From Cytophagaceae bacterium (GTDB lineage Bacteria; Bacteroidota; Bacteroidia; Cytophagales; Spirosomataceae), in the NCBI GenBank assembly GCA_947460975.1, contig CANHGO010000007.1:1-53785 (forward strand): DNA of 53,785 nt, given 5' to 3'. The notes beneath the pieces are model-generated. The model worked only from the letters and a program-made list of their open reading frames with translations, was not told the DNA's origin and searched no databases. Shown here in pieces: positions 4,255 through 26,612 of the stretch; within the stretch, counting starts at the first letter, position 1, and every line of letters starts with the position of its first letter. Both the position numbers and the translations under genes were made by a program.

Positions 4255-4256
4255 GT

Positions 4257-4970
4257 TTAAAATAAATTTAAAATCATATATCCGCTCATTACAATCATCA
4301 ATGCATCTTCGATAATTGTCACAGTACTCATTGGCAAATTAAAAACTGCCCCCAAACAAGCACATTGTATTTTCTTATTATCAAATACTGACTGCAAAAC
4401 ACCTATTATACTTATACTCATGACCACAAACGTGCAGGCATTTGTTACTAAAGGATTGTAATTTAAAAGATAAGAAATACCCAAGCCAACCTCTACAAAA
4501 GCGTATGAATATGCCCAAAAGGAGAATTTTTTTGCTACCACATCATACATGACATAACTTTCGGCAAAACCTTTTAAATTTAACAATTTGAAAAATGAGA
4601 ACACTAAGAAGAACCCAGCCATAAAATGCTGCATCGCCTCCATTAAAATAATATGTCCGCTTTTCAGTTGTATCAATAAAGTAATAGTAGAGACATAGAG
4701 AAAAATCAGCAAAATTGGAGCATAAGTTTGAAACCACGATTTTGCTTGTTCCTCTAATTCAATGTTTTGTTTTGCAGAAATGGTATATTTTGCATCTAAT
4801 ACTTTCTGGAAATTTGACAAGTTGATGTGCCTATCCATTGAAATGGTAACCGAATCGTATTCCTTAGAAACCTCAACATTAGTTACATTTTCAACGCTCT
4901 CTAACAATGATTTTACTTTTGCTTCACAACTTGTGCAAGTCATTCCAGTTAATTGATATGTATGTGTCAT
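4257..4970 (-). CDS. HMA domain fused to a MauE/DoxX-like membrane domain
   Basis: 237 residues. Residues 1-70 form a heavy-metal-associated domain with the metal-binding GMTCTSC motif near residue 9. The rest is hydrophobic, with about four predicted transmembrane helices in a MauE/DoxX-like pattern, including FMAGFFLVFSFFKLLNLKGF and a Cys pair (IQCACLG) near the membrane surface. It may pass Cu(I) or Zn(II) between proteins at the inner membrane, or act in thiol redox. It lies directly upstream of the multicopper oxidase (2-bp gap), so the two are surely co-expressed. Family-level function is not established. Confidence 0.8.
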   Translation of the reverse strand: MTHTYQLTGMTCTSCEAKVKSLLESVENVTNVEVSKEYDSVTISMDRHINLSNFQKVLDAKYTISAKQNIELEEQAKSWFQTYAPILLIFLYVSTITLLIQLKSGHIILMEAMQHFMAGFFLVFSFFKLLNLKGFAESYVMYDVVAKKFSFWAYSYAFVEVGLGISYLLNYNPLVTNACTFVVMSISIIGVLQSVFDNKKIQCACLGAVFNLPMSTVTIIEDALMIVMSGYMILNLF

Positions 4971-5025
4971 ATTTGTGTTTTTAAATAGAGTTATATAAAA
5001 CGCAAATTTTCCAAATTAAAACCAT

Positions 5026-5037
5026 CGTGACGTTACG
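5026..5037. promoter_or_regulatory. Candidate operator: near-palindrome CGTGACGTTACG
   Basis: CGTGACGTTACG matches its own reverse complement at 10 of 12 positions. It lies in the only sizeable gap inside the cassette (4971-5070), between the AraC-type regulator and the HMA membrane gene. A related ACGT-centred palindrome precedes the HMA-DUF3347 gene (6502-6513). Regulatory role is inference. Confidence 0.3.
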
Positions 5038-5070
5038 TTATTTTTTAGAAATTATATAAGATTTCCTTTC

Positions 5071-5631
5071 TTATACACTGTCAATACCGGTTCTTTTACT
5101 TGATTTAAGTTGTTTAAAATAGGACGTTGTAAAACCTGTTTCCCTTTTAAATTGATTACTTAGATACGCAACACTACTGTAATTCAATTGGTATGCAATT
5201 TGGCTCAATGTTAATTCATCATACATGAGCAATTCTTTTACTTTTTCAATTTTTTGCTTGATAAAGAATTGTTCAATGGTTTGCTGTTCTACTACCGAAA
5301 AAAGGTTACTCAGAGATTTGTATTCGTGATTTAAGTGTTGAGATAAATAATTAGAAAGATTAACTCTTAAGTCATTGTTTTTGTGATGAACCAATTCAAT
5401 AATTAGATTTTTTACCTGTTCAATTGTTCTACCTTTTTTGTCATCAATTAATTCAAACCCAACAGACTTGAAGACACTGATTACATCCAATTTTATGGAA
5501 TCTATATTTTCTTCTTTTATTTCTACCTCACCTAACTCAATGTGAATTGGGTGAAGTCCAAGTTTTTCTAGCTCAGACTTCACGACCATTTTACATCGAT
5601 TACAAACCATGTTTTTAATGTATAGTTTCAT
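5071..5631 (-). CDS. AraC-type regulator with N-terminal HMA-like metal-binding domain
   Basis: 186 residues. The N-terminus (MKLYIKNMVCNRCKMVVKSEL) is an HMA-like fold with a CNRC (CxxC) motif and about 65 residues in total. A linker follows, then a C-terminal AraC/XylS double helix-turn-helix (~residues 85-180), with LTLSQIAYQLNYSSVAYLSN as the first recognition helix region and FKRETGFTTSYFK as the family signature. The arrangement suggests a one-component transcription factor that senses Cu(I) or a similar metal through its own CxxC. Its ATG overlaps the upstream gene's TAA (TAATG), implying translational coupling. DNA targets are probably the neighbouring metal genes. Confidence 0.85.
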   Translation of the reverse strand: MKLYIKNMVCNRCKMVVKSELEKLGLHPIHIELGEVEIKEENIDSIKLDVISVFKSVGFELIDDKKGRTIEQVKNLIIELVHHKNNDLRVNLSNYLSQHLNHEYKSLSNLFSVVEQQTIEQFFIKQKIEKVKELLMYDELTLSQIAYQLNYSSVAYLSNQFKRETGFTTSYFKQLKSSKRTGIDSV

Positions 5632-6491
5632 TAATTTAAGGTTTCAACAACTTTACCACATCCCAACATTTTAGTACCATAATAGGGGTTTTTAACGATG
5701 TTCTCTTTACTCAACCAATTTGCCCCTTTTCCTTTGTTAGCCATTGGACAAAATTGATAATATGTTGGGGTATCTTGTTTTGAGACTTTCATCACCGAAT
5801 ACATGTTTTTAGATAAAGATGTAAAGTGGTCTCTTTGATGTCCGGCATCTTTGGTTTCCGAAATATGTTCAGCATCAAAGACCAAATCTTTCATCACTTT
5901 CATCCATTCTACATGTTCTTCTTTTGTTAATGATTCCATTTTAACCGAATTAATAGAATTCAACAGGGATGCTGCTTTTGTTGCTGCCAGATTACCATCC
6001 GTTTTCACCAAAGCATCTTTCACAGCAAAATAGGAATCGAAGACTTCTTTGAGTTGCTCTTCTTGTATATTTGTTGCTAAAATGGGTGCGACAACTTTTT
6101 CTTCTACAGCAAGAATTACCGTTTTTGCATCTTCAACTTTTACAACAACTTTTCCTGTCCGTTCATATTGGCAACAAATTTCAAGTTTAGCATAAACATT
6201 GTCAGGAGCGAGAAATTTGTCGCTATCATAACCTGCCAAACCAATTCGTTTTAGAATTTCATCCTGATTTGTTTTCTTTTCATCATAGGTTAGGAAGGCC
6301 ATTTTTGTATCCTTATTCCATTCCACCTGAACAATATCCTTTACATTGGCCGCCGATTCGATGGTCTTTTTACAGATAGAACAATTTCCATAAATGTGAA
6401 CAGTTTCTACCTTGGCATTTTTAATTTCTGCAAAACATGTCGAGATGGATAGCAATAATGTTATTGCCATCAATAATTTTATTGATTTCAT
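5631..6491 (-). CDS. Secreted HMA domain protein with DUF3347
   Basis: 286 residues with a signal peptide (ending near TCFAE). An HMA-like domain follows, with a CSIC motif (HIYGNCSICKKTIE), then a second short region containing EICCQYERTG. The C-terminal half is DUF3347: a helical region with YFAVKDALVKTDG and the closing CPMANKGKGANWLS...NPYYGTKMLGCG signature. The latter has Cys and Met residues resembling those at the CusB C-terminal copper site, and DUF3347 is often found fused to CusB in Bacteroidota. It is probably a periplasmic copper chaperone. It overlaps the AraC gene by 1 base and is preceded by a perfect TTTTACGTAAAA palindrome. Confidence 0.85.
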   Translation of the reverse strand: MKSIKLLMAITLLLSISTCFAEIKNAKVETVHIYGNCSICKKTIESAANVKDIVQVEWNKDTKMAFLTYDEKKTNQDEILKRIGLAGYDSDKFLAPDNVYAKLEICCQYERTGKVVVKVEDAKTVILAVEEKVVAPILATNIQEEQLKEVFDSYFAVKDALVKTDGNLAATKAASLLNSINSVKMESLTKEEHVEWMKVMKDLVFDAEHISETKDAGHQRDHFTSLSKNMYSVMKVSKQDTPTYYQFCPMANKGKGANWLSKENIVKNPYYGTKMLGCGKVVETLN

Positions 6492-6501
6492 TTTTTAATA
6501 A

Positions 6502-6513
6502 TTTTACGTAAAA
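6502..6513. promoter_or_regulatory. Candidate operator: palindrome TTTTACGTAAAA
   Basis: A perfect 12-bp palindrome lies 10 bp upstream of the HMA-DUF3347 start codon, where a bound protein would block expression. It shares the ACGT centre with the site at 5026-5037. It is A/T-rich and could be chance. Confidence 0.3.
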
Positions 6514-6580
6514 AACAATTGATTTTTAAAGCAATACTTTGCTTCCGATAAGACAGACCAATGGCTGTCAAGGTAATAAA

Positions 6581-6964
6581 TTAACCTATATTGGGGGGTG
6601 TCCAAATGTAACCAAAACCTGATGAATGGTAAGTTTGGTTATAAAACGATTTTACTGAATTGCGAGCTGTGAATGTATTGATATTAAATTTTACTAAAAA
6701 ATCAGGTATTACCAATGTGGAGAAAGGTGATGGGCAACTGCACGTAGAATTATCACAATTCCCTCCACAACTGTTCCCTTCGTTTTGTCCGGTCATTTTG
6801 TGTTTTCCGCAACAATTATCTTTATTAGATTTCTCAGACGAGTCCTTTAAACAGCAGGATTTCTCCGCTTTCTTAGATTTTGCTCCACACGCATAGGATT
6901 TCACGGGCACGGTTAGGCAGCCAAGAAATGTAATTATGAGCAGTATGTGAAATTTTTGCAACAT
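6581..6964 (-). CDS. Small Cys-rich secreted protein, putative metal binder
   Basis: From the ATG at 6964 the product is 127 residues: a signal peptide (MLQKFHILLIITFLGCLTVPVKSYA), then a cysteine-rich segment with CCLKD, NCCGKHKM, CGGNCDNSTCSC, and a conserved-looking tail ending GYIWTPPNIG. The frame stays open upstream to a TTG at 7000, but the signal peptide fits the ATG. The CC...PP layout recalls the small HYC_CC_PP-type proteins often found in Bacteroidota metal clusters, though the HYC part is not seen. It is the first gene of the leftward cassette. Binding of copper or a similar metal is inferred from Cys, His and Met content. Confidence 0.7.
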   Translation of the reverse strand: MLQKFHILLIITFLGCLTVPVKSYACGAKSKKAEKSCCLKDSSEKSNKDNCCGKHKMTGQNEGNSCGGNCDNSTCSCPSPFSTLVIPDFLVKFNINTFTARNSVKSFYNQTYHSSGFGYIWTPPNIG

Positions 6965-7261
6965 ATTTCTTATAACGATAAAAGTACGAATTTGTTTCAA
7001 TTTTTAATGAATTAGCTCTAAATTTAAATACTTCCTTCAAATAAAGTGCTGTTATACTAATTTCACAATTAATGATAAAGCGCGCAATTTCTTACAATGA
7101 ATGAAAAAGTGATGAATGTCAAATACTACCTCCAATTTAGACAAAGTTAAAAGAAAAACACTTGTCGGATTTCCAATATCCAAACCAACTCTTGGCATAT
7201 TCTTGGCACAAACAGAAAATCGCATGTAAAACACTTGATGAAATATGTCCAAAAAACACAT

Positions 7262-7286
7262 AACCCTCTCATGGGACTCGAACCAC
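7262..7286 (-). repeat. tRNA 3'-end fragment (T-arm-like), possible old attachment site
   Basis: On the minus strand this reads GTGGTTCGAGTCCCATG then AGAGGGTTA, closely following a tRNA T-loop (GGTTCGAGTCCC) and resembling the last 25 bases of tRNA-Asn 80 bp away. No D-arm or anticodon arm precedes it. A stranded tRNA 3' end beside an intact tRNA gene is what repeated integration or excision at a tRNA attachment site leaves. Confidence 0.6.
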
Positions 7287-7318
7287 AAAAATCGTTGAAT
7301 ATGGGTTGATTTTAAACG

Positions 7319-7345
7319 AAAAAAGTCACTATTTCTAGTGACTTT
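7319..7345 (-). terminator. Terminator of tRNA-Asn
   Basis: On the minus strand AAAGTCACTA pairs perfectly with TAGTGACTTT across a GAAA loop (10 bp) and runs into a T tract. It lies 9 bp beyond the tRNA 3' end, so it should end the tRNA transcript. Confidence 0.85.
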
Positions 7346-7353
7346 CTTGTTTG

Positions 7354-7427
7354 CTCCCTCTCCTGGGCTCGAACCAGGGACCCCATGATTAACAGTCATG
7401 TGCTCTAACCAACTGAGCTAAGAAGGA
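7354..7427 (-). tRNA. tRNA-Asn(GTT)
   Basis: On the minus strand a full cloverleaf can be folded. The acceptor 5' strand TCCTTCT pairs with AGAGGGA; the D-arm contains AGCTCAGTTGGTTAGAGC; the anticodon arm ATGACTGTTAATCAT has GTT in the loop; the T-arm reads CCTGGTTCGAGCCCAGG. The discriminator is G, as expected for Asn. CCA is not encoded. The 3' end faces the metal island, the usual orientation for integration into a tRNA. Confidence 0.96.
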
Positions 7428-7455
7428 GTTTGTCCTTAACGGGAATGCAAAAATA

Positions 7456-7488
7456 GGGGGCTAATTCCTTAAATGCAAGATAGCCCCC
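7456..7488. terminator. Bidirectional terminator between the efflux operon and tRNA-Asn
   Basis: GGGGGCTA (7456-7463) pairs with TAGCCCCC (7481-7488) across a 17-nt loop. Seven T follow on the plus strand (from 7491) and an A/T-rich TATTTTTG follows on the minus strand. It ends the leftward TolC-fusion protein transcript before the tRNA. Confidence 0.8.
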
Positions 7489-7501
7489 CGTTTTTTTCAA
7501 T

Positions 7502-8902
7502 TTATTTCTTGTCTGCGCTACGATCCGCCGACTTTATTTCCTTTTTCTTCACCTTGTCCCCTTCCTTCAACTTCTTCGCAACCGTTGCATACGGGCCAGA
7601 AATGATTTCTTGGCCTTCATTTAAGCCCGAGATAATCTCAATGTTATCAAAATCCGAAATGCCTGTCTTCACTTGTATTTGCTTCACTTGGCCCTTCTCC
7701 ATGATAAAAACAACCTCTTTCGTGTTTTCCTTCCTGCGCTTAGCCGTATTGGCGTCCTCCTGTGTAACAGCTGTCGCACCATTTTTGGCCATAGCATCCT
7801 CTTTTACCTCTTCTGTTTTAGCCCCAATCTCTCGGGTAGTAACCGCTGACAACGGAACCGTTAATATTTGATCTTTTCTATTCGTCAAAATCTCAACCGA
7901 TGCCGTCATCCCAGGTTTTAACGGATATGATAATTTGCCCTTAATTAAATCGCTATACGAGCTACGTAAAATACGAATCTTCACCTCAAACTCCGTCACC
8001 GCATCCGTAGACATAGATGCCGCACCTGATGAATTTGCCGAACTCGCTATCTCATACACCAAACCCTTAAACTTGCGCTCCGAGGAAGAAAATGCATCCA
8101 CGTCAATCATCACCGTATCACCCAAACTTACCCTCGTAATATCATTCTCATTCACATTAACCCGAACCTCCATGTTATTCAAATTCGCAATCCGCAACAT
8201 CTCCGTTCCCGCCATCTGCGACGTTCCCACCACACGTTCGCCCAATTCCACGTTCAACTTCGAAATGATGCCGCTCTGTGGCGCATAAATCGTCGTCTTT
8301 GTTAAATTAGTCCGCGCCTCCTTTAGCGCCGCCTCCGAACTCTTTACATTAAAATTTGCCGCTTTCACATTCGCCTTTGCCGCCTCTAAATCCTGCTTGG
8401 CCACTAAGTATGCCGACTGGAACTGATCAAAGTCCGCATCCGAAATCACCTTATCATTATGCAATTTTACATTTCGGTCAAAATCAATTTTTGACTTACT
8501 TAATCTTGCTTCACTTTGTGCCAATACCGCCTTGCTTTGCTCCGTACTTGCCTTCATCGCATTGACCTGCGCCTCCGCACGAGCCAATAAACTCACATAG
8601 TTATCCGGACGTATCTTCAAAATTTCTTGGCCCACCACCACAGAATCGCCCTCTGCCACATTCAAAGACACAATCTCCCCCGACACATCCGGTGAAACTT
8701 TCACCTCCACCTCAGGCTGTATCTTTCCCGAAGCCGAAACTTTTTCAATAATTGTTGCTTTAGCCGCCTTTGTTAATTCCACCTCCGTAGGCTCCACCTT
8801 TCCGATCCATTCCATCTTCTTGGCCAACCCTAAGCCTCCCAAAATTACTACGACCGCCACTGCGATGATAATCCACGTTTTTTTACTATTCTTTGTTGCC
8901 AT
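7502..8902 (-). CDS. Periplasmic membrane fusion protein of a tripartite efflux pump (MacA/HlyD type)
   Basis: 466 residues from the ATG at 8902; in-frame ATGs at 8917 and 8947 are alternatives, but MATKNSKKTWIIIAVAVVVI gives the usual short cytoplasmic start plus one membrane anchor. Domains follow in order: lipoyl-like half (VSPDVSGEIVSLNVAEGDSV), long helical hairpin rich in Ala/Lys/Gln (~110-200), second lipoyl half (IYAPQSGIISKLNVELGERV), beta-barrel, and membrane-proximal domain with an unusual Ala/Lys-rich insertion (AKNGATAVTQEDANTAKRR) near 375. It would link an inner-membrane transporter to TolC. It is downstream of the tolC-like gene, but no MacB-type permease is encoded in view. 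Confidence 0.88.
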   Translation of the reverse strand: MATKNSKKTWIIIAVAVVVILGGLGLAKKMEWIGKVEPTEVELTKAAKATIIEKVSASGKIQPEVEVKVSPDVSGEIVSLNVAEGDSVVVGQEILKIRPDNYVSLLARAEAQVNAMKASTEQSKAVLAQSEARLSKSKIDFDRNVKLHNDKVISDADFDQFQSAYLVAKQDLEAAKANVKAANFNVKSSEAALKEARTNLTKTTIYAPQSGIISKLNVELGERVVGTSQMAGTEMLRIANLNNMEVRVNVNENDITRVSLGDTVMIDVDAFSSSERKFKGLVYEIASSANSSGAASMSTDAVTEFEVKIRILRSSYSDLIKGKLSYPLKPGMTASVEILTNRKDQILTVPLSAVTTREIGAKTEEVKEDAMAKNGATAVTQEDANTAKRRKENTKEVVFIMEKGQVKQIQVKTGISDFDNIEIISGLNEGQEIISGPYATVAKKLKEGDKVKKKEIKSADRSADKK

Positions 8903-8956
8903 AATTTTTTGATTCATAGAAAGCCACTTTACGCGCCAGCCTACCATTTTATATTT

Positions 8957-9018
8957 TAAACCTATTATTTATTACCTATTACTTTTTACCTATTACCTAA
9001 ACCCTATTTACCTATTGC
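8957..9018. repeat. AT-rich intergenic repeat, ACCTATTA units
   Basis: The octamer ACCTATTA occurs at 8960, 8974 and 8988 (14-bp period), with a variant ACCTATTG at 9010, between the tolC-like gene and the fusion-protein gene. These are short imperfect tandem repeats. In the transcript (minus strand) they read TAATAGGT. No hairpin is obvious. Confidence 0.6.
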
Positions 9019-10476
9019 CTAAAATGTCAAACTCTTTCCTTGGTAAAAATCCAAAATCTTCGTCCTAAACACAAAATCATATTTGGCCTGAATCAAACTC
9101 AATTTCGCCTTGTCCAAATTTGTTTTCTGCAAATTATAACTTACAAAGTCAATCGTGCCTGCATTAAAGCGACTTTCCGAAGCCCTAAAAGATTCTTCTA
9201 ACGCAAATACTTGTACGTTCCCCGCCTCATATCTCTTCGCCGCATTTAACATATTTACATATGCCTGCTCTATATTTTGACGCAATGTTAATCGTGCGCG
9301 TTCCGCCTCTATCTCCAAATTCATGCGCTGTAAATTAGCCTGCGAAACCCGTGTCTTATTTAAATTTTTGGCAAAAATAGGAATGTTTAAATTCAACGAG
9401 ATGACCTTGTTTTGCGTATTATTCAATTGATCAAAATAACCAACCGTCGTGCCCTCCCCAAACTTCATCTGAGTCGTTGTGATTGGGTAATTTTGTCCCC
9501 CTATAGCTACATTACCTAAATTAACCGTCTGAGGGCCTAAAACTTCTATTGTTTTTAATGCGTTGGACTGATTCGCAGACCAGCTACCATTCAAGGAAAT
9601 ACTCGGCAAACGGAATGCTTTTGCTACTTCAATGCTTTTCGCCGCACCCTGAACACGGAAATCTGCTGCCCGAATTAATGGTTGGGACGATAACGCTTTC
9701 GTATATATATCGGCAATACTGACATCATAAGCCTTAGAACTTGGCACCGGAACCTGAATACGCTCCAGCTCAAATTGCTGAATACTAGAATCATTTAACA
9801 ACTGTAACAGCGTTAATTTATTAATATCCAAATTACTTTGAAACGTCACCAAGTTCGACTCCTCGTTGGCCAACTGCGCCTTCAAATCCAATAAGCTCGA
9901 ATTTGCTAATGACCCTGCACGCACTAACTTCTCTGTTCTTTCAATCTGTAATTTCGTAATATCCGTTTGAGTTTTAGCAATGCTCAATTGGTCTTCCGCA
10001 TTTAAAATAGACAAATACGACAGTGCCACCTGCAACGAAATATTTTCGCGAATAGACACCAAATCCTCCCTTGTCGCCTTTAAATTAAAATCACTCTGAG
10101 ATACACTGTTTTTTAATTGGCCCCCATTAAACAACAATACGTTGGCATTCAAGCCGACATTGTAATAATTGATGTTTCGCGAATCATACCCATTCGTGTA
10201 GGGATTAATCGAACGACCAAAACTCGCCGCCTGATTCATATTTCCATTCAAAGAAGGCAACTGATTATATTTCGCTTGTTGGTACGACAACTCCGCATTT
10301 TGCAAATTAACCTCATAGGACCTTACATTTAGATTATGCTGCAAGGCCGTCTCCACCGCCTGAGTTAATGTAAGTTTGGTTATTTTAGCATTTCCTTGAA
10401 TGGCCGTTTGGCTATTGCCAACAAATGGAACAGTTCCCATTAGGAAAAACAATATGGCTAATTTTTTTGTATTCAT
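9019..10476 (-). CDS. TolC-family outer membrane efflux protein
   Basis: 485 residues from the ATG at 10476; a TTG 9 bp upstream is less likely. There is a signal peptide (MNTKKLAILFFLMGTVPFVGNSQ), then two tandem OEP repeats with the long amphipathic helices of TolC: LTLTQAVETALQHNLNVRSYEVNLQNAEL at the start of repeat 1, and IYTKALSSQPLIRAADFRVQGAAKSIEVAK at the start of repeat 2. PSLNGNMNQAASFGRSINPYTNGY is the first barrel strand region. Length is typical. It forms the outer channel for the fusion protein encoded just downstream; both are read leftward as one operon. Confidence 0.92.
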   Translation of the reverse strand: MNTKKLAILFFLMGTVPFVGNSQTAIQGNAKITKLTLTQAVETALQHNLNVRSYEVNLQNAELSYQQAKYNQLPSLNGNMNQAASFGRSINPYTNGYDSRNINYYNVGLNANVLLFNGGQLKNSVSQSDFNLKATREDLVSIRENISLQVALSYLSILNAEDQLSIAKTQTDITKLQIERTEKLVRAGSLANSSLLDLKAQLANEESNLVTFQSNLDINKLTLLQLLNDSSIQQFELERIQVPVPSSKAYDVSIADIYTKALSSQPLIRAADFRVQGAAKSIEVAKAFRLPSISLNGSWSANQSNALKTIEVLGPQTVNLGNVAIGGQNYPITTTQMKFGEGTTVGYFDQLNNTQNKVISLNLNIPIFAKNLNKTRVSQANLQRMNLEIEAERARLTLRQNIEQAYVNMLNAAKRYEAGNVQVFALEESFRASESRFNAGTIDFVSYNLQKTNLDKAKLSLIQAKYDFVFRTKILDFYQGKSLTF

Positions 10477-10570
10477 CTCTTTCAATATATTTCTGCAATG
10501 TTACGAATTTTGACGTGCTCAAAAACTGATTTTTGGATAAACGGCAAGCAATCAGGATAAAAAGCCCTAT

Positions 10571-11257
10571 TTATTGAACTACTTGGTATCGCCTTTTGGC
10601 CTCTGCGCGTGAAAACGCATTAAAGTGCCACCATTCATATTCGATTGGCATAAATCCTGCAGCCTTCATTGCATTTCTTAGTATAAGCCGATTTTCGTAC
10701 GCCTTTTTTGACAATTTGTTGTTTGCCAAAAGCTCCTGCTCTTTGGAAGGATAAGCTAATTCACCAAAAAAATCAAACGTAGTTCCCATATCTAAAGCCT
10801 TTCCCTTTTCATCCGCCACGGTTAAATCAATCGCGCTACCATAATTATGAATGGAATGTTCCCGTGGATCAGCCACATAGTTTTTCCGGATATTAGGCGG
10901 ATATTGAGTCAAAGTATTCCATAAAATCCATTGGATCGATAAAGGTCTAGCCGCATCATAAATCAATAAATGATAGCCGGGCTTGTTGGCCTCCAATGAT
11001 TTTTGTGCCTTTTTCAGCATATCCACCACTTCTTTCTGTAAATATCCATGCTGCAAACAGCCATACACATCGCGTTTCATAAAATTATCTTGCGTCGCAT
11101 ATTTTAATTCGACCTTTACGCCAGGAGCTGCTTGGCTAACTTCCACTAATCCTTGCTTTCGCATCGCCGCTTCATACGAACAGTTTTGGGCCCGCGCTAT
11201 ATACGTCGCAGTCAAAGCAAAAAGAATAAATACAGGTAAGTTTGTCAATCGAATCAT
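10571..11257 (-). CDS. D-alanyl-D-alanine dipeptidase, VanX/DdpX type (peptidase M15D)
   Basis: 228 residues from ATG 11257; a TTG at 11290 would add 11 residues before the signal peptide and is rejected. A signal peptide (ending near ARAQ) is followed by the M15D domain. Visible zinc and catalytic motifs are SIHNYGSAIDLT (first His and Asp ligands) and YEWWHF (catalytic Glu and third ligand, His). The AARP motif is also present (YDAARPLSIQWILW). It cleaves D-Ala-D-Ala or similar muropeptide fragments, probably in the periplasm for wall recycling. It is divergent from the SpmAB fusion gene, with 55 bp between starts. Confidence 0.9.
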   Translation of the reverse strand: MIRLTNLPVFILFALTATYIARAQNCSYEAAMRKQGLVEVSQAAPGVKVELKYATQDNFMKRDVYGCLQHGYLQKEVVDMLKKAQKSLEANKPGYHLLIYDAARPLSIQWILWNTLTQYPPNIRKNYVADPREHSIHNYGSAIDLTVADEKGKALDMGTTFDFFGELAYPSKEQELLANNKLSKKAYENRLILRNAMKAAGFMPIEYEWWHFNAFSRAEAKRRYQVVQ

Positions 11258-11312
11258 CAGAAAATGTAGAATTTCCCTAAATTTAGCCAAAATTTATTAT
11301 TCCCTTTTTCAC

Positions 11313-12548
11313 ATGGCTTTAAATTGGATTTGGTTTTTGTTTTTTGGCGTCGCTTTTTTCGTAGCTATCATCCAATTTATATTTTTTGGTAACGCCGATA
11401 TTTTCAAAATTCTGGTCGACGGCATGTTTGATTCTGCCGAAATGGCTGTGATGAAAATCGCCCTACCTCTCGCCGGAGTCATGACTTTCTTTATGGGCAT
11501 TTTACAAATAGGGGAAAAAGCGGGAGCCATCCATTTTTTAGCCCGCCGAATTAAGCCCTTCTTTACCCGACTATTTCCTGAAATACCACAAGATCATCCC
11601 GTTCATGGCCAAATGATCATGAATTTTTCGGCTAATTTATTGGGCCTCGATAATGCCGCGACACCCTTTGGACTTAAGGCCATGCAAGGGCTGCAAGAAA
11701 TAAATCCCGTGAAAGATACGGCATCCAATGCCCAAATTATGTTTTTAGTTTTGCATAGCGCGGGACCCGTTTTAATCCCCTTGAGCATCATGGCGCAACG
11801 TGCCATTTATGGTGCTCAGGATGCTTCTGATGTGTTTATTCCCTGTTTGATGGCGACCTATGCCACCACCATGACGGGTTTGATTGTTGTTTCCATCAAG
11901 CAAAAAATTAAGCTTTTTGAACCCGTGCTTTTTGCTTGGATCTCCGGCCTAACTTTATTTTTGGGAGGGATATTGTGGTACTTTAGCCAGTTGCCAAAAG
12001 AGTCCATCGAGATTCAATCCAAAGTCTTTAGCAATGGGATTTTATTTCTATTAATCTTTTCTTTTATCGCGGCCGCCTTTCGGAAAAAGATAGACATTTT
12101 TGGAACCTTTGTCGAGGGCGCCAAAGGCGGATTCGAAACCTCCGTTAAAATCATTCCTTACCTAGTGGGGATGTTGGTCGCCATCTCCTGCCTCCGCAAC
12201 TCGGGCGCACTCGGATTTGTCGTGGATGGAATGAAGTGGCTTGTCGCACAAACGAGCTTAGATAATCGATTTACCGACGCGATGCCCACGGCTCTTTTGC
12301 ATCCCATTAGTGGAAGTGGATCCCGCGCCATGATGATCGACACGATGAAAACCTTCGGGCCCGATTCGTTTGTGGGAAGGCTTGCCTGTGTATTTCAAGG
12401 ATCCGCTGAGACTATTTTGTATGTGGTGGCACTTTATTTCGGCTCAGTACAAGTAAAAAATATTCGCTACACGTTGTGGGCAGGTTTGTTTGCAGACCTC
12501 GTGGGAATCATTACAGCTGTAGGTGTGAGTTACCTGTTTTTTGGGTAA
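11313..12548 (+). CDS. Fused SpmA-SpmB nucleoside-recognition (Gate) membrane protein
   Basis: 411 residues starting at MALNWIWFLFFGVAFFVAI. The frame is open much further upstream, but that part overlaps the dipeptidase gene on the other strand. Residues 1-~205 correspond to SpmA (NFSANLLGLDNAATPFGLKAMQ, a strong family signature). Residues ~230-411 correspond to SpmB (GAKGGFETSVKIIPYLVGMLVAISCLRNSGA; HPISGSGSRAMMID). There are about ten predicted membrane helices. In Bacillus the separate SpmA and SpmB act in spore core dehydration; in non-sporulating bacteria the role is unknown. It converges with wzi (3-bp gap). Confidence 0.9.
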   Translation: MALNWIWFLFFGVAFFVAIIQFIFFGNADIFKILVDGMFDSAEMAVMKIALPLAGVMTFFMGILQIGEKAGAIHFLARRIKPFFTRLFPEIPQDHPVHGQMIMNFSANLLGLDNAATPFGLKAMQGLQEINPVKDTASNAQIMFLVLHSAGPVLIPLSIMAQRAIYGAQDASDVFIPCLMATYATTMTGLIVVSIKQKIKLFEPVLFAWISGLTLFLGGILWYFSQLPKESIEIQSKVFSNGILFLLIFSFIAAAFRKKIDIFGTFVEGAKGGFETSVKIIPYLVGMLVAISCLRNSGALGFVVDGMKWLVAQTSLDNRFTDAMPTALLHPISGSGSRAMMIDTMKTFGPDSFVGRLACVFQGSAETILYVVALYFGSVQVKNIRYTLWAGLFADLVGIITAVGVSYLFFG

Positions 12549-18824: not shown

Positions 18825-20339
18825 TTATTTTTTTGCATCGTTCAACAACGCCCTTACATCGCTTAGATGGAAACTACTTGGATATTGTTTGATAAATAAA
18901 AGAAATGGCTCGCTATCGGCCGGGTCGGCCAACGTTAAATAATAAAACAACGCGTCGTCGCCATAAATATCCTCTGGAAACTTTTTAAAAATTTCCCAAT
19001 ACATTTCTTTGGCAATTGCATTCTCCCCCTTTTGTCGCGCTCGGGTTGCCCTTAGATATAAAATATCGTCTTGTAAGCTTTCTTGTTTGTTCTGATTTGT
19101 CAAGAGAACCAACAAAGAATCCCCTTCCTCCCACCTTTTTTGATCATACATAAATCGGATATTGGCAAATTTTTTCAAGCCAACCTCCAGAGAATCTATT
19201 CCCGTATTATCCTCAATCAATAAGCTTAGTTCTAGCGCATCGTTGGCAATCTCTCTTTGGGTTCCCTGCTTTAAAATATCGGCAAGCTCTTTGGCTAATT
19301 CAAAATCACCCGTATAAAAATACAATTTGACCGTTTTGATTTTTGCTTCGTAGGCCAACGGGGAATCTTTGACTTGCTTTTCAACTTGAGCATATTCAAT
19401 TAAGGCATCATACTTTTTACCTTTATACGTTAAAATGTCTCCCAACTCCAATTTCATTTGGGCCTGCAAATCGAGATCATTTTGCGCCAAAAAAATTCCT
19501 TTATTTAATACTAAAACCGCTGAATCTAATTGCTTTAGTTGGTATGCATATAACTTCGCCTCTTGCCAGTATGAACTCATCGAGATGGCATTATCCCCTC
19601 GGTCACTTCTTAATTTCTGATAAGCGCTAATTAAATTCCTCACTTCGGCTATTTCCGGATTTTCTTTTCTCAAAACAACTTTTTCACGGGCGGCGATAGA
19701 CATTTGTTGCCAACGGGATTTTTGATTAGATCCAGGATAACTTTTAATCAAGTAATCAAATATCTTACTGGCCAAAGACCATTGCTGACTTTGAAAAATA
19801 TAGGAAGCAAATTCCAACAAGCGCTTTCCTTGCTCATTTTTAAATCGCATATCCAAAGCTCTTCGCTGATTCCAAGCCTTTTCCCAATCCCCATTAAAAA
19901 TATACGTACTCACTAACAACTCGATTAAATTAGCGTCATCCGGAAATTGTTGGATTTTCTGAATGAATAATCGCTCAATTTCTGAAAATGGTATTTGTTG
20001 TTCATATAATCCATAAGCAAATTGCTGCACCAAAGATAAATCTCCCGTTTTCAATAAGTTATCCACATTCTTTCCACATTGATCAAGCCATAATGATGCT
20101 AAATTATCTTCATTAAATAAATTATAGGCATAATTTGTAAATAAATCATCACTAATTACATGATTACTTACAAATTCATCTAGTAACTTATTTCGCTTTT
20201 TTTCATTTTTAATTAATTGAATGGATCTGAATTCAGATTTGAACTTTTGATTGGAAGTAGAATCTTGAACAATCAAATGATTATTTGAACCAAAGACTTG
20301 GTTTAAAATCAGACAGAAAAAGAAACACTTTATCCACAT
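18825..20339 (-). CDS. Secreted TPR-repeat protein of unknown function
   Basis: 504 residues with a short signal peptide (MWIKCFFFCLILNQVFGS), then helical repeats of TPR type throughout. Examples are NAYNLF, LVSTYIFNGDWEKAWNQRRALDM, LELGDILTYKGKKYDALIEYAQVE, and LYFYTGDFELAKELADILK. There is no catalytic domain. It is probably a periplasmic or outer-membrane-associated scaffold. Its start codon lies inside the DnaA-box region: TTATCCACA at 20330-20338 overlaps the ATG, so origin firing and its transcription could interfere. No family name can be given. Confidence 0.75.
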   Translation of the reverse strand: MWIKCFFFCLILNQVFGSNNHLIVQDSTSNQKFKSEFRSIQLIKNEKKRNKLLDEFVSNHVISDDLFTNYAYNLFNEDNLASLWLDQCGKNVDNLLKTGDLSLVQQFAYGLYEQQIPFSEIERLFIQKIQQFPDDANLIELLVSTYIFNGDWEKAWNQRRALDMRFKNEQGKRLLEFASYIFQSQQWSLASKIFDYLIKSYPGSNQKSRWQQMSIAAREKVVLRKENPEIAEVRNLISAYQKLRSDRGDNAISMSSYWQEAKLYAYQLKQLDSAVLVLNKGIFLAQNDLDLQAQMKLELGDILTYKGKKYDALIEYAQVEKQVKDSPLAYEAKIKTVKLYFYTGDFELAKELADILKQGTQREIANDALELSLLIEDNTGIDSLEVGLKKFANIRFMYDQKRWEEGDSLLVLLTNQNKQESLQDDILYLRATRARQKGENAIAKEMYWEIFKKFPEDIYGDDALFYYLTLADPADSEPFLLFIKQYPSSFHLSDVRALLNDAKK

Positions 20340-20634
20340 AGTATCATTAAAAGAAATAAAATTTTAAATACATTTTTTTTGTTCTTCATTATTGATGTCT
20401 GTGGATAAGTGGATAAGTCTAAAATAGCTTTTCAACTAGCAGATAATAAAACACTTATATTTTGCAATGCCATTATTGCTAAGTGGATAAGTTTTCATTT
20501 GGTTGTGGATAAGTAATTAGTTATCCACACGTACTTGGCTAAATTTTATTTATACACAATTGGCCTTCAGCTTTGTGGATAACATGTGTACAATTTTGGC
20601 ACTTATCCACATTAGTTTTGGGTACTTATCAACA
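20330..20634. other. Candidate chromosomal replication origin (oriC): DnaA-box cluster plus AT-rich region
   Basis: Perfect DnaA boxes (TTATCCACA or its complement TGTGGATAA) lie at 20330, 20400, 20504, 20521, 20574 and 20603. TTATACACA, also within the TTATNCACA consensus, is at 20550. One-mismatch boxes are at 20408, 20482 and 20626; another perfect box is at 20059 inside the TPR gene. The stretch 20341-20395 is almost pure A/T and could be the unwinding element. Context agrees: mnmG (gidA) 2.5 kb away, parS sites within 6 kb, and gene direction switching across 20-30 kb. GC skew was not computed. Confidence 0.82.
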
Positions 20635-22243
20635 AATCAGTTATTTGAAAATTAGCCTTTAATTTCACTTTCCCCTCTAAATAAAAGACGCTTTCCGGCT
20701 TTGTTTTTAATATAAAATTGCCAATATCTTTATATCCATTTTTATTTTTGTCTTCGATGGCCCTAATCATGTAGACGCCCGGTTCAACATGTAGAAAATT
20801 GAATTTTTGGCTGGTATTCTGTTCATACAAGACTTGCATGTTAGTGGCATTTAGAAGCTGTACTAAGTAGTTACTAGGCAGCTCACCGACCCTACCTTCT
20901 ATGCTTCCGTACTCCTCTAAATCTTGGAATTGATATGCTTGTTTTTGGACGTCAGTAGAATCATTTTCGACACTAACGAAAGCCCCCTTTTCTAGGTTGA
21001 GCTGGAATTTCTCTCTATACGGCAAAAACGATCGCTTAATGGTCAGCTGGTTGGAATATTTGTTCCACATGTACGCTTCGTCGGGAAGCGTAATGGTTTC
21101 GTTTTCTTCAGTTTTAAATTGTACACGTTTGCTATCCCATGAAACAACGGGCTTAGGAAAGGTAAGAACCAACGAATCCTCTGGCGAAACATATTTTCCC
21201 TGAGCCGGCAAATAACTTAATGTCAAGGGTGTTTGCGCAACTTTTTCTTTTTTATTTAGCTCCCTAAATTTTACTTTTAACGGGATCTTGATTTTTCTAT
21301 CTAGCGAGTCTGTCACGTTAGCACTCAGGAACAGCGTGTCTTTTGCCTCCTGGTTTTTCACATAAATTCGGATGTTTTTATTTCCTTCTATTTGGTAAAC
21401 GAGGTCTTTCTTGTTTTCTAATTCTAGGTCCTTAATTCCTCGGCTCATTTCATATAAAACCGTTTTGGCTGTGCTTGTTGTTTTGGTAATTTTTAAAGGA
21501 TCTAGATTTTGAAGCGCGATAGAAAAATTCTTGGTTTCATTTTTGTTTAGGGTGAAAAATGGCTCTGTCAAAAAATCAACCGGTTCTTTATTCGAGTTGT
21601 ATAAAAGGTTGTTGTTGCCATCGATAAATGCAGCCATATAATATTTGCCTTGTGCCAAATTTTCTAAGGTATAAATACCCGAGGTATCGGTTTTCGTGAA
21701 ATAATAAGGCTTGGCTTTATCGATTCGAAGGGTGTCACTATATGGATATAGGCCCACCAAAACATTTTCAAAAGCCTTGTTGAGGTCGACCAACTTTATT
21801 TTCCCTGTAATGCTTAATGAATCGATGGTGTTCGATGTGCTAAAAACAAGTTTGATATTTTTGCCAACATTTCTTTCTGAGATATCCTCGATTGCATTTC
21901 TAAAATTGAACGTATATGTTGTTTGATCTTTTAGGGTGCTATCTAACAATATGCTCAAGCCATTGGGCCGAATGCGAGTTTGGTACGTACCTATATTGGG
22001 GGTAATCAGTAATTCTTGATTTAGATTTCTAACGTTGACATATTCATTAAACGTTAGTTCTAATTTTTTTCCTTTGTAGTTTTTACTTTTATTGAGCGGA
22101 ACGGAGGTGACCAATTTCGGAGCAAGTGTATCTTTTTTTCCACCCGGAGGGCTTGCCATTTGAGCACAGCTTTGAATCATTAAAAAAGCCGTGATGAATA
22201 AAAAGAAAAGGAGAAGAACCTGTTTGCTTCGAAGATCAGACAT
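20612..22243 (-). CDS. Ig-like (Big_5/SbsA type) domain lipoprotein
   Basis: 543 residues from ATG 22243; the longer frame to 22285 precedes the signal and overlaps the upstream gene more. A lipobox follows the hydrophobic segment (FLMIQSC), predicting a lipoprotein. The mature start MASPPGGKKDTLAPKLVTSVPLNKSKNYKGKKLELTFNEYV is the typical opening of Bacteroidota Big_5 proteins. Later regions are beta-rich, with a carboxypeptidase-regulatory-like segment (LAQGKYYMAAFIDGNNN) and a second near the end (VEPGVYMIRAIEDKNKNGYKD). Function is unknown; cell-surface location is likely. Its start overlaps the methyltransferase stop by 8 bp. Confidence 0.82.
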   Translation of the reverse strand: MSDLRSKQVLLLFFLFITAFLMIQSCAQMASPPGGKKDTLAPKLVTSVPLNKSKNYKGKKLELTFNEYVNVRNLNQELLITPNIGTYQTRIRPNGLSILLDSTLKDQTTYTFNFRNAIEDISERNVGKNIKLVFSTSNTIDSLSITGKIKLVDLNKAFENVLVGLYPYSDTLRIDKAKPYYFTKTDTSGIYTLENLAQGKYYMAAFIDGNNNLLYNSNKEPVDFLTEPFFTLNKNETKNFSIALQNLDPLKITKTTSTAKTVLYEMSRGIKDLELENKKDLVYQIEGNKNIRIYVKNQEAKDTLFLSANVTDSLDRKIKIPLKVKFRELNKKEKVAQTPLTLSYLPAQGKYVSPEDSLVLTFPKPVVSWDSKRVQFKTEENETITLPDEAYMWNKYSNQLTIKRSFLPYREKFQLNLEKGAFVSVENDSTDVQKQAYQFQDLEEYGSIEGRVGELPSNYLVQLLNATNMQVLYEQNTSQKFNFLHVEPGVYMIRAIEDKNKNGYKDIGNFILKTKPESVFYLEGKVKLKANFQITDLLISTQN

Positions 22244-23123
22244 GCTCAAAAATATATAAATTACTTGAATAATTTCCCTTGCCAAAATAGGCGCTTAGGT
22301 TGGACCATAAGCCGACCATCAACGAGCGGATCAATTTCTTCTTGCCCGTTTTATATTCGTGACTGAGTAATGAGATATAAAAACTGTCAAAAATCTGCCC
22401 TCTTCTTGATTTTAATTTGAAGCCATGTTTTTTAGCCAAAGACTCTATCGTGCTTGGGTCGAAATGGTAGATATGTCTTGGGACATCATAGGCCGCCCAA
22501 TGCTCTTTAAAATGTTGCGCATCAAAACTTTTTGAATTAGGCAAGGCCAAAAGCAAGACCCCCTCTTTTGCGATTCTAGATTTGAAAAAGGCGAAATATT
22601 CCTCAAGTTCATACACGTGTTCCAATACATGCCAAAGGGATATCAATCTAAATTTTTCTTCTTCCGGAATCTCTTTGATCGAAGGATAAATATCGATGCC
22701 CAGCATAGTCTCGGCCCTCGCAGCGGTTACGGGGTCCAACTCCATTCCGCTAATTTTCCATCCGGCTTTTTGACATGCATGAAGAAAGTGTCCATTTCCA
22801 CAACCAACATCTAGCAGTTCAAGATTGCCTGTTTTCTCTTTTTCGATCCACTGCGTTTTTTGTTTTAAAGTAAAATTTCGAACTAAGTGGTAGAGCTTAT
22901 TGATGATCCCTTCTTGGGTGTCGCTATGTGAAATGTAATTTTCCGACTTATAATAAGGACCCGCCTCTGAGGCGGTTGGCCTAGGATTTGTAAACAGTAA
23001 TTCGCAGGCTTGGCAACGAGTGATCTCGAAATTTTCTTTGGAGACGGTATAGTCTTTTGCCGTTAAAAAGGGCAATATTTTAGTTTCATTGCAGGCAGGA
23101 CATGAGCTTAGTTTTTCCATCAT
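22236..23123 (-). CDS. SAM-dependent methyltransferase with N-terminal zinc ribbon
   Basis: 295 residues. An N-terminal four-Cys ribbon (SCPAC...RCQAC) is followed by a class I methyltransferase core with LELLDVGCGNGHFL as motif I, SGMELDP as motif II, and ISLWHVLEHVYELEEYF as the Methyltransf_11/23 signature. Substrate is unknown; relatives act on sugars, quinone intermediates or natural products. Its ATG overlaps the mnmG stop (TAATG), so it is translated together with mnmG. The downstream lipoprotein overlaps it in turn, giving a tight mnmG-methyltransferase-lipoprotein operon. Confidence 0.85.
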   Translation of the reverse strand: MMEKLSSCPACNETKILPFLTAKDYTVSKENFEITRCQACELLFTNPRPTASEAGPYYKSENYISHSDTQEGIINKLYHLVRNFTLKQKTQWIEKEKTGNLELLDVGCGNGHFLHACQKAGWKISGMELDPVTAARAETMLGIDIYPSIKEIPEEEKFRLISLWHVLEHVYELEEYFAFFKSRIAKEGVLLLALPNSKSFDAQHFKEHWAAYDVPRHIYHFDPSTIESLAKKHGFKLKSRRGQIFDSFYISLLSHEYKTGKKKLIRSLMVGLWSNLSAYFGKGNYSSNLYIFEHV

Positions 23124-24982
23124 TATCGACCCATAAACAAAAGTAAAATAGAAACATCGGAAGCCGAAACCCCGGAAATCCGACTCGCCTGACCTATGGT
23201 TTCAGGCCTAATGGCTTTTAGTTTTATTCTTGATTCTGTAGACAAAGTTTTGATTTTATCATAATCAAAGTTTGCGGGAATACTTAAGTCTTCCATGGTT
23301 TTCATTTTGTCAACCATCAGCCGTTCCTTCTCTATATAGCTCTCGTATTTAACAATGATTTCCACTTGCTCTAATTCCTCATTCGTATAGCCGTTTTTAA
23401 TTTCCTTGAAATGCTCGTTGGTCAGCAATGCCTCAAAACTTAAATCAGAACGCCTTAATAAATTGACCAATGGTGTGCCTTCTCGGATGGGAGAACTTTG
23501 ATTATTTTCAAGCCAATCGTTTATGTTTTCTGGGCGAATTTTAATCGTTTTTATTTCATTCATGAGAGCAGCCACATTCGATTTTTTCTGAACGAAGCGA
23601 TCCATTCTTTTTTGTGTGGCTAGGCCGAGTTTAAACCCTTTGTCGGTCAATCGCTCATCCGCATTGTCTTGTCTGAGCAAGGTTCTAAACTCCGCTCTCG
23701 ACGTAAACATGCGATAGGGCTCATCTGTTCCTTTGTTGATCAGGTCGTCAATCAAAACGCCTATATAGGCATCTGACCTCGACAAAGTAAAGGGATCCAA
23801 ATGATGTGTTTTTTGATGCGCATTAATTCCCGCCATTAATCCTTGGCAAGCCGCCTCTTCATATCCCGTCGTTCCATTAATTTGACCCGCAAAAAACAGA
23901 CCACTTATTCTTTTTGTTTCGAGCGTCGACTTTAATTGGGTCGGCGGAAAATAGTCATACTCAATCGCATAACCTGGCCTAAACATTTTGGCTTTTTCAA
24001 ATCCTGGAATTAATCGAATGGCCTCAAATTGTATTTCTTCTGGTAAAGATGTCGAAAAGCCATTGACATATATTTCTACGGTTCGCCAGCCTTCTGGTTC
24101 TACAAAGATTTGATGGCTATCTTTATCAGCAAAGCGATTTATTTTATCTTCTACGGATGGGCAATAACGAGGCCCCAATCCTTTTATTCTTCCCGCAAAC
24201 ATCGGCGATTTATCAAAGCCTTTTCTTAGTGCTTCGTGGACTTTTAAGTTGGTATGCGTGATCCAGCAAGAGCGCTGTTCCTTAATATGGGTCTCGCTTA
24301 AATATGAAAATGAGCTTGGGTTTTCATCTCCTTTCTGCTCTTCCATGGCAGCATAATCTAAGCTCCTTCCGTCTACTCTAGGCGGCGTGCCAGTCTTCAT
24401 TCTCCCCGATTCAAAACCCAACTCAAGCAATTGTTCTGTAAGCCCCATCGCCATCGGCTCTGCCATTCTCCCTCCCCCAAAATTCTTCTCGCCTATGTGA
24501 ATCAAACCATTTAAAAAAGTCCCATTCGTTAACACGACACTTGGCGCAAAATAGCTCATGCCCATGCGCGTTTTTACTCCTTTTACTTCGCCATTTTCTA
24601 GGATGATTTGTTGGACCGAGTCTTGCCAAAAATCAACATTCTTATTTTCTTCCAACGCCCAACGCCACTCCTCCGCAAATCTCATTCGGTCCGACTGACA
24701 CCTGGGCGACCACATTGCCGGACCCTTTGATCGATTCAGCATTCGAAATTGTATCATGGTTTTGTCGGAAATGATTCCAGACATCCCTCCTAGCGCATCG
24801 ATTTCTCGCACAATCTGCCCTTTGGCCACCCCGCCCATCGCCGGATTGCAGGACATTTGTGCAATGGTTTGCATGTTCATGGTAATCAGCAAAACGCGCG
24901 AACCCATTTGTGCCGCGGCATGTGCTGCTTCACAACCTGCGTGTCCCGCTCCTACTACTATGACGTCGTATGTATATTGCAT
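23123..24982 (-). CDS. mnmG: tRNA uridine 5-carboxymethylaminomethyl modification enzyme MnmG (GidA)
   Basis: 619 residues, full length. The N-terminal FAD-binding motif is [22 protein letters not shown]. Family signatures include [22 protein letters not shown] and [21 protein letters not shown], the NAD-binding middle region, [21 protein letters not shown], and a C-terminal helical MnmE-contact domain. With MnmE it modifies U34 of certain tRNAs. The gene lies near oriC in many bacteria, the origin of the old name gidA. It is first in a leftward operon; a parS site lies 15 bp upstream of its start. Confidence 0.98.
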
Positions 24983-24997
24983 GCAAATTTAATTGGG

Positions 24998-25013
24998 TGT
25001 TTCACGTGAAACA
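24998..25013. promoter_or_regulatory. parS centromere site (perfect ParB-binding palindrome)
   Basis: TGTTTCACGTGAAACA is identical to the canonical bacterial parS and extends to an 18-bp perfect palindrome GTGTTTCACGTGAAACAC (24997-25014). It lies in the 40-bp gap between mnmG and ybeY. ParB loads here for chromosome segregation; parS normally clusters near oriC. parA and parB themselves are not in the window. Confidence 0.95.
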
Positions 25014-25850: not shown

Positions 25851-26612
25851 ATGATTAGACGAATTGAGCCCAATATGTACCATCAGAATAAAAAAGTCCA
25901 AGTTGTTGATGTAAATCTTGTGCCGTACCAAGAAGCTTGGGATATGCAAGAAAAACTCATGGCGGAGATATCTGAAATTAAATTGGCTAATCGGGATCGC
26001 GCCCAAAGCGAAATAAACATAACGCCCAATTATCTTTTGTTCTGTCAACACCCCCATGTGTATACCTTAGGAAAGAGCGGCGATGCTTCACACCTTTTAA
26101 TGCGCGAAGAGTTTTTGCATACCATCAATGCGACGTTTTTCAAAACAAATCGAGGGGGCGACATCACCTACCACGGGCCTGGCCAACTCGTTGGCTATCC
26201 CATTTTTGACCTAGAGAATTTTTATACCGATATACACCTGTATTTAAGAATGCTCGAAGAGGCCATCATTCTTACCTGTCAAGATTACGGTTTGATTGCG
26301 GGCAGAATTAATGGACTAACCGGCGTTTGGGTCAATCACGAATCTGACCAAGCAAGAAAAATTTGTGCTTTTGGCGTAAAAGCATCCCGGTGGATTAGCA
26401 TGCACGGCTTTGCGTTTAATATCAATTCTGACCTATCTTACTTCTCCCACATTGTGCCCTGCGGAATTTCCGAAAAAGGAGTAACCTCTTTAAGCCATGA
26501 ATTAGGCGTTGGCGTCAATGAAATAGAAGTAAAAGAAGCAGTTTTAGGACACCTAAGTAACCTATTTGGATTTGAAATCATTCGCGTTCCACGTGAAACG
26601 ATATCCGCATAA
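25851..26612 (+). CDS. lipB: Octanoyl-[acyl-carrier-protein]:protein octanoyltransferase
   Basis: 253 residues from 25851; the second ATG at 25875 (MYHQNKKVQVVDVNLVPYQEAW) is perhaps the true start, giving 245. LipB signatures: PHVYTLGKSGDASHLL, RGGDITYHGPGQLVGYPIFDL with the catalytic lysine region, and the catalytic cysteine in SHIVPCGISEKGVTSL. It moves octanoyl groups from ACP onto lipoyl domains, the first step of lipoate synthesis; lipA is not in the window. Its last codons contain a parS-like palindrome (26585-26600). Confidence 0.95.
   Translation: MIRRIEPNMYHQNKKVQVVDVNLVPYQEAWDMQEKLMAEISEIKLANRDRAQSEINITPNYLLFCQHPHVYTLGKSGDASHLLMREEFLHTINATFFKTNRGGDITYHGPGQLVGYPIFDLENFYTDIHLYLRMLEEAIILTCQDYGLIAGRINGLTGVWVNHESDQARKICAFGVKASRWISMHGFAFNINSDLSYFSHIVPCGISEKGVTSLSHELGVGVNEIEVKEAVLGHLSNLFGFEIIRVPRETISA
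26585..26600. promoter_or_regulatory. Second parS-like site, inside the 3' end of lipB
   Basis: CGTTCCACGTGAAACG differs from the 14-bp parS core GTTTCACGTGAAAC by one base (T to C). It encodes RVPRET of LipB, so it sits within coding sequence, 1.6 kb from the perfect site. Confidence 0.75.

Follow-up and report, generated by a model that had tools for sequence, protein, structure and literature searches.

We identify the region at positions 20330-20634 of the analysed window, judged from its sequence, as very probably the chromosomal origin of replication (oriC) of an uncultured Cytophagales bacterium. The window, of 53,785 bp, is an entire contig (C7) in an assembly of nine contigs, 1.50 Mb and 62.6% completeness. 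The reading of this region as oriC, put forward as a candidate in an earlier note on this DNA, draws on the density of its DnaA boxes, on the presence of a box cluster beside the same gene, encoding an Ig-like protein, at 30 of 30 genus loci against 0 of 30 at dnaA, on a GC-skew sign change in relatives, on a nearby parS, on a conserved core and on a change in gene direction. This would be an oriC of the ordinary bacterial kind that lies away from dnaA, with an opening segment that is slightly unusual.

A box search recovered, within these 305 bp, all ten DnaA boxes (at most one mismatch) that had been listed in the earlier note, and reproduced their division into six perfect boxes, one TTATACACA and three other one-mismatch boxes. 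The assertion that chance cannot explain such a cluster was upheld by simulation: when the densest 305-bp stretch was scored in each of 400 order-2 Markov sequences of the window, the maxima were 4 boxes and 1 perfect box, compared with 10 and 6 observed. The leftmost box, a perfect TTATCCACA on the plus strand (20330-20338), lies on the far side of an AT-rich tract and overlaps the first codons of a gene encoding a TPR-like protein. On the opposite side of the tract, and pointing into it, two overlapping tandem boxes occupy the minus strand at 20400-20416 (TTATCCACA at 20400-20408 and TTATCCACT at 20408-20416). They are followed by a one-mismatch box (20482-20490, minus strand), an inverted pair of perfect boxes (20504-20529, with 20504-20512 on the minus and 20521-20529 on the plus strand), the TTATACACA box (20550-20558, plus), a perfect box (20574-20582, minus), another perfect box that abuts the Ig-like stop codon (20603-20611, plus) and a one-mismatch box within the 3' end of the Ig-like gene (20626-20634, plus). 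An outlying eleventh box, also perfect, lies inside the TPR gene (20059-20067, plus), and perfect boxes on the same strand of the window are spaced by more than 40 bases. The cluster fills the 272 bp of intergenic DNA that separate the TPR start codon from the Ig-like stop codon, with its outermost boxes extending into both ORFs, and thus presents the dense intergenic array of DnaA boxes that is expected of a bacterial oriC. Across the 1.50-Mb assembly, perfect TTATCCACA sites number 24, seven of them here and 17 scattered, and a reversed control pattern occurs 23 times, indicating that the 9-mer is not in general excess. A denser cluster elsewhere would speak against the candidate, and no second cluster of perfect boxes was found in these 1.50 Mb (62.6% complete).

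The ORF map agrees with the stated neighbours of the boxes, a TPR gene on one side and an Ig-like lipoprotein gene on the other. The left neighbour (18825-20339, minus strand) encodes a TPR-like protein with a signal-like start, matching TPR_14 with an E-value of 3.7e-4, under the Pfam cut-off. The right neighbour (20612-22285, minus strand) encodes an Ig-like protein with a Pfam Big_5 match (2.5e-13) and a start that is lipobox-like by eye. Proceeding rightward, the Ig-like gene is followed by a gene for a SAM-dependent methyltransferase (22236-23123, minus strand; Pfam), mnmG (gidA; 23123-24982, minus strand; Pfam and NCBIfam), a perfect parS, ybeY and a UPF0102 gene, confirming that mnmG and parS are close by. 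mnmG sits 2.5 kb to the right of the cluster, two genes away, so that the cluster is found near mnmG and not dnaA, as in the mnmG-linked oriC of other Bacteroidota. The first DnaA box overlaps the TPR start codon (20330-20339), and DnaA binding could therefore affect expression of the TPR gene. Scans for promoters and terminators yielded nothing exceeding chance, and Rfam at the gathering threshold returned only a tRNA; a tRNA-Asn (GTT) lies at 7353-7427 on the minus strand. Further to the left, the leftward genes at 2026-10485 encode a multicopper oxidase, a MauE/HMA-domain protein, an AraC-type regulator, a DUF3347 protein and HlyD/CusB-like and OEP-type efflux parts, which together look like a metal-handling set.

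The association of the cluster with the Ig-like gene is conserved throughout the genus. The gene was found in 36 of the 38 genus genomes, including that of the window, and at each of the 30 loci examined it is adjoined by a box cluster, with 7-13 boxes per approximately 400 bp. The same count at dnaA, covering up to 1.5 kb beyond the DnaA domain, revealed a cluster at none of 30 genus loci; the richest of these carries two one-mismatch boxes and no perfect one. These relatives thus carry dnaA elsewhere, in keeping with the earlier statement that dnaA is not adjacent; in the window's own assembly (62.6% complete) dnaA was not found. One relative (G004) harbors, besides dnaA, two additional weak matches to the Bac_DnaA domain, on contigs C44 and C152.

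The Ig-like gene extends well beyond the genus, being present in 143 of the 145 genomes of the order that were searched, two of the 143 belonging to the window's genus. Among the 141 remaining matches, 68 were examined, comprising the 28 best-scoring loci, assessed by reading, and 40 chosen flanks leaning to long contigs, assessed by script; a cluster was called when it contained at least five boxes and exceeded the maximum of 20 shuffles. Under this definition, a box cluster lies beside the Ig-like gene at 18 of 28 and 16 of 40 loci, or 34 of 68, suggesting that this origin position is common to many genera of the order and not to all of them. The other 34 loci may reflect a relocated or diverged origin. 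Unusually dense arrays were observed beside the same Ig-like gene in a further family of the order, where two genomes of the same genus carry 17 (locus L248 of G101, starting near base 244) and 18 (locus L251 of G075, starting near base 185) perfect boxes in approximately 400 bp.

The parS-like palindrome to the right of mnmG, TGTTTCACGTGAAACA (24998-25013), is the sole perfect copy in the 1.50-Mb assembly; a second parS-like site, with two mismatches, lies at 26585-26600. Perfect parS sites are present in 30 of the 38 genus genomes, for a total of 44 sites. In 25 of these genomes parS lies on the same contig as the Ig-like gene, and there every site (38 in total) falls 2.7-4.4 kb from that gene; the remaining five genomes have the two on separate contigs. 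A parS site close by is a usual attribute of a bacterial oriC. The switch in gene direction reported in the earlier note is likewise apparent: genes are mostly leftward up to 25.8 kb, mixed to about 30.4 kb and mostly rightward thereafter, with exceptions that include a rightward Gate-domain gene (10983-12548) and a few leftward genes past about 30.4 kb.

The proposal that a GC-skew minimum should fall at the cluster held in part, with a sign change at or near the cluster in three of the five relatives sampled (G040, G021, G133, G007 and G020) and poor support in the other two. On the 766-kb contig G040:C11, 8 of 9 stretches to the left are negative and 11 of 11 to the right are positive, and the change is located in the 2.5-kb bin containing the cluster. 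On G021:C17 (779 kb) the sign also changes at the cluster, with 13 of 13 stretches negative to the left and 6 of 7 positive to the right. In G133, a single contig of 5.58 Mb from another genus of the family, the sign changes within about 40 kb of the cluster: skew is negative in 11 of 11 stretches with starts no farther along than 2.745 Mb, already positive in the one that ends at the locus, and positive in 7 of the 8 that follow, with small values throughout (mostly <0.04). The signal in G020 is weak (9 of 11 stretches negative to the left, 4 of 8 positive to the right). This counts against the oriC reading, as do two further skew observations. G007, a single 2.5-Mb contig beginning at dnaA, lacks a clean skew V: most stretches between 0.25 and 0.83 Mb are positive, where this arm should be negative, and the sign turns from minus to plus most clearly at about 0.23 Mb; our guess is that this profile reflects a large inversion or a misassembly or mis-join. 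Within the window itself, the cumulative skew minimum falls at 26,276, 5.7 kb to the right of the cluster, with a broad floor from about 21 to 31 kb, and therefore not exactly at 20.4 kb.

Beside the boxes, the AT-rich tract at 20339-20399, with its box-proximal half T-rich on the plus strand, constitutes the proposed duplex unwinding element (DUE), as expected of a bacterial oriC. It had been described as some 55 bp of almost pure A/T; the tract is indeed AT-rich, with 85.5% A+T over 20341-20395, which makes that wording slightly strong. Only 39 of 53,731 windows are less stable than this segment. The tract aligns across all 30 genus loci, and the most conserved part of these 30 sequences comprises the AT tract, a T-rich triplet segment (20378-20399, plus strand) and then TGTGGATAAGTGGATAAG, corresponding to the overlapping tandem pair. 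The 18-base core of this pair (hereafter, the core pair) is found with at most two mismatches in 30 of 30 genus loci, and in all of them, as at 20400-20416, the tandem boxes point into the DUE, as in origins with the basal unwinding system (BUS). The T-rich segment occupies the place expected of a DnaA-trio array and its GC-rich spacer. It contains TTGT (20379-20382) and TTATT (20389-20393), and across the genus TTGT is present in 29 of 30 and TT[A/G]TT in 30 of 30 loci, on the expected strand. The E. coli-type ssDUE pattern, with both motifs on one DUE strand, is therefore present, in T-rich DNA where such motifs are easily encountered. T is also invariant (30 of 30) at positions -8, -11, -14, -17 and -20 from the core pair. 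The genus sequences are related and do not amount to 30 independent observations.

The published BUS search rule (PMC8287927) calls for at least three 3'-NAN-5' triplets no more than 16 bp away from a box. A run of three such triplets on the 5'-tail strand was found at the core pair in none of the 30 genus loci. A canonical DnaA-trio had at first seemed present there and was rejected, because its A-centred triplets, in runs of 6-10 at all 30 loci, are on the wrong strand with respect to the published polarity. A permissive rule identifies short expected-strand runs beside two other boxes of the window, at 20521 (four triplets) and 20603 (three), and a trio may thus exist at a box outside the core pair. 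Elsewhere in the order, TAG stands 0-5 bases away from an AT-flanked tandem pair at 20 of the 34 cluster loci outside the genus, frequently in the form TTATTAG with a GC-rich spacer after it, and seven other triplets reach 4-9 of 34 in the same test. The corresponding figures are 7 of 30 for TAG and 20 of 30 for GTT in the genus, and 7 of 34 for TAG and 2-8 for other triplets in order loci without a called cluster. Since tandem pairs besides the core pair, including some whose boxes are poor, also qualify in this test, the contrast with the genus is drawn at the core pair itself (0 of 30). A looser count of trios across the order places them on the expected strand at 23 of 34 loci and on the opposite strand at 9, with 6 and 3 at eight further loci, a count biased by admitting any tandem pair and by preferring expected-strand runs. 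With TAG at 20 of 34 loci in the order and at 0 of 30 at the core pair, the canonical trio seems to be common in the order and absent from the core pair of this genus.

The authors of the BUS study suspected the existence of deviant DnaA-trios without the middle adenine (PMC8287927). We advance, as a hypothesis on the opening element and a rather doubtful one, that in this genus a conserved array of T-rich triplets, each with a middle T, might have taken the place of the canonical DnaA-trio (TAG/TAT triplets and their GC-rich spacer). If true, such a T-centred array would represent either a natural deviant DnaA-trio or a change to the E. coli manner of capturing a T-rich strand.

In E. coli, gidA lies near oriC and the R1 box points into the DUE, and an oriC plasmid has reportedly been made for Cytophaga hutchinsonii. 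Origins linked to mnmG and lying away from dnaA have been described before in the Flavobacteriaceae. In Mariniflexile litorale, Ori-Finder placed oriC beside mnmG and away from dnaA, reportedly in agreement with GC skew (PMC11278836), although the figure legend of the same article assigns mnmG to ter and leuB/dnaA to oriC, contradicting its own text; the same method gave the same arrangement, beside mnmG and away from dnaA, in the Flavobacteriaceae strain KMM 8389 (PMC12843772). The Flavobacteriaceae origins share with the Cytophagales cluster the linkage to mnmG and the separation from dnaA, and differ from it in that the latter lies two genes from mnmG, between the TPR and Ig-like genes. The B. 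subtilis BUS (PMC8287927, PMC6669920) resembles the genus arrangement in its tandem boxes, its AT-rich element and an adjoining element of 3-base periodicity, whereas the genus core pair lacks an expected-strand 3'-NAN-5' run (0 of 30) and conserves T as the middle base. E. coli oriC likewise has a DUE beside its boxes, with TTGT and TTATT in the DUE strand captured by DnaA (PMC10316083), and the genus is set apart by overlapping tandem boxes at the DUE edge. The oriC of Thermotoga maritima (PMC10316083) also has a DUE of mixed type, in which a TTATT motif is combined with trinucleotide modules next to box 1, but it depends on TAG repeats, none of which lie beside the genus core pair. Searches confined to open-licence PMC text brought up no title on a linkage between the Ig-like gene and oriC, which is weak evidence of its absence.

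The main alternative to an origin is that the cluster titrates DnaA or regulates its activity, in the manner of datA or DARS, or serves a DnaA-controlled TPR promoter. The box overlapping the TPR start codon is compatible with this explanation, as is the existence of a smaller cluster in relatives: ten genus members carry another group of 3-5 perfect DnaA boxes within a conserved ORF arrangement (L169:9963-10004 in G020:C3, L115:9696-9737 in G007:C1, and loci L003, L004, L005, L006, L007, L010, L013 and L016), an observation that counts against the oriC reading insofar as not every box cluster in the genus is an origin. At the two of these ten loci annotated with Pfam, the group lies between genes for an HTH_3 regulator and a PRA-PH-domain protein, and in L169 an OmpR-type regulator and a sensor kinase follow it. 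This second cluster, which was not seen in the window's own assembly (62.6% complete), is a candidate DnaA-titration or DnaA-regulated site. A titrating or regulatory role for the cluster at 20330-20634 is nonetheless very improbable, given the skew sign change at or near it in three of five relatives, the adjoining parS, and the conservation in 30 of 30 loci of the AT tract with its inward-pointing tandem pair.

Less probable still is a true origin beside dnaA, with the cluster at 20330-20634 as a secondary site. Origins linked to dnaA are the most familiar arrangement, and G007 shows negative skew around dnaA that becomes positive some 0.23 Mb from it; yet none of the 30 dnaA loci (up to 1.5 kb beyond the DnaA domain) bears a cluster, the first 20 kb of the G007 contig, from dnaA onward, contain no perfect box, and in one published Bacteroidota genome dnaA lies off the skew minimum and oriC is predicted at mnmG (PMC11278836). 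We assign a similarly negligible probability to the origin of an integrated plasmid or another mobile replicon. Iteron-like arrays of boxes occur in plasmid origins too, but the housekeeping genes mnmG and ybeY flank the cluster, no plasmid replicase family was detected among the window ORFs scanned, and the position of the cluster is maintained across the genus and at half of the loci examined in the rest of the order.

For the cluster as chromosomal oriC, the arrangement of these elements suggests how initiation could proceed. DnaA, encoded by a distant dnaA, would bind the boxes at 20330-20634, and the overlapping tandem pair at 20400-20416 would seed a DnaA oligomer into the AT tract (20339-20399), which would open, while the remaining boxes would form a platform for DnaA oligomerisation. 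The captured strand would probably be the T-rich plus strand with TTGT and TTATT; DnaA would hold it during helicase loading, after which a pair of forks would move off bidirectionally. The new origins would subsequently be segregated by ParB at the parS site 4.4 kb to the right.

Together, these results place the origin of a genus represented here mainly by draft genomes, and the box cluster, taken with the Ig-like gene, mnmG and parS, provides a marker with which to orient its chromosomes and to derive growth rates from sequencing coverage. That the canonical trio is apparently missing from the core pair of a single genus, in an order otherwise rich in it, offers a natural contrast for testing the BUS requirement, and would test how far a proposed broadly conserved unwinding system is truly needed.
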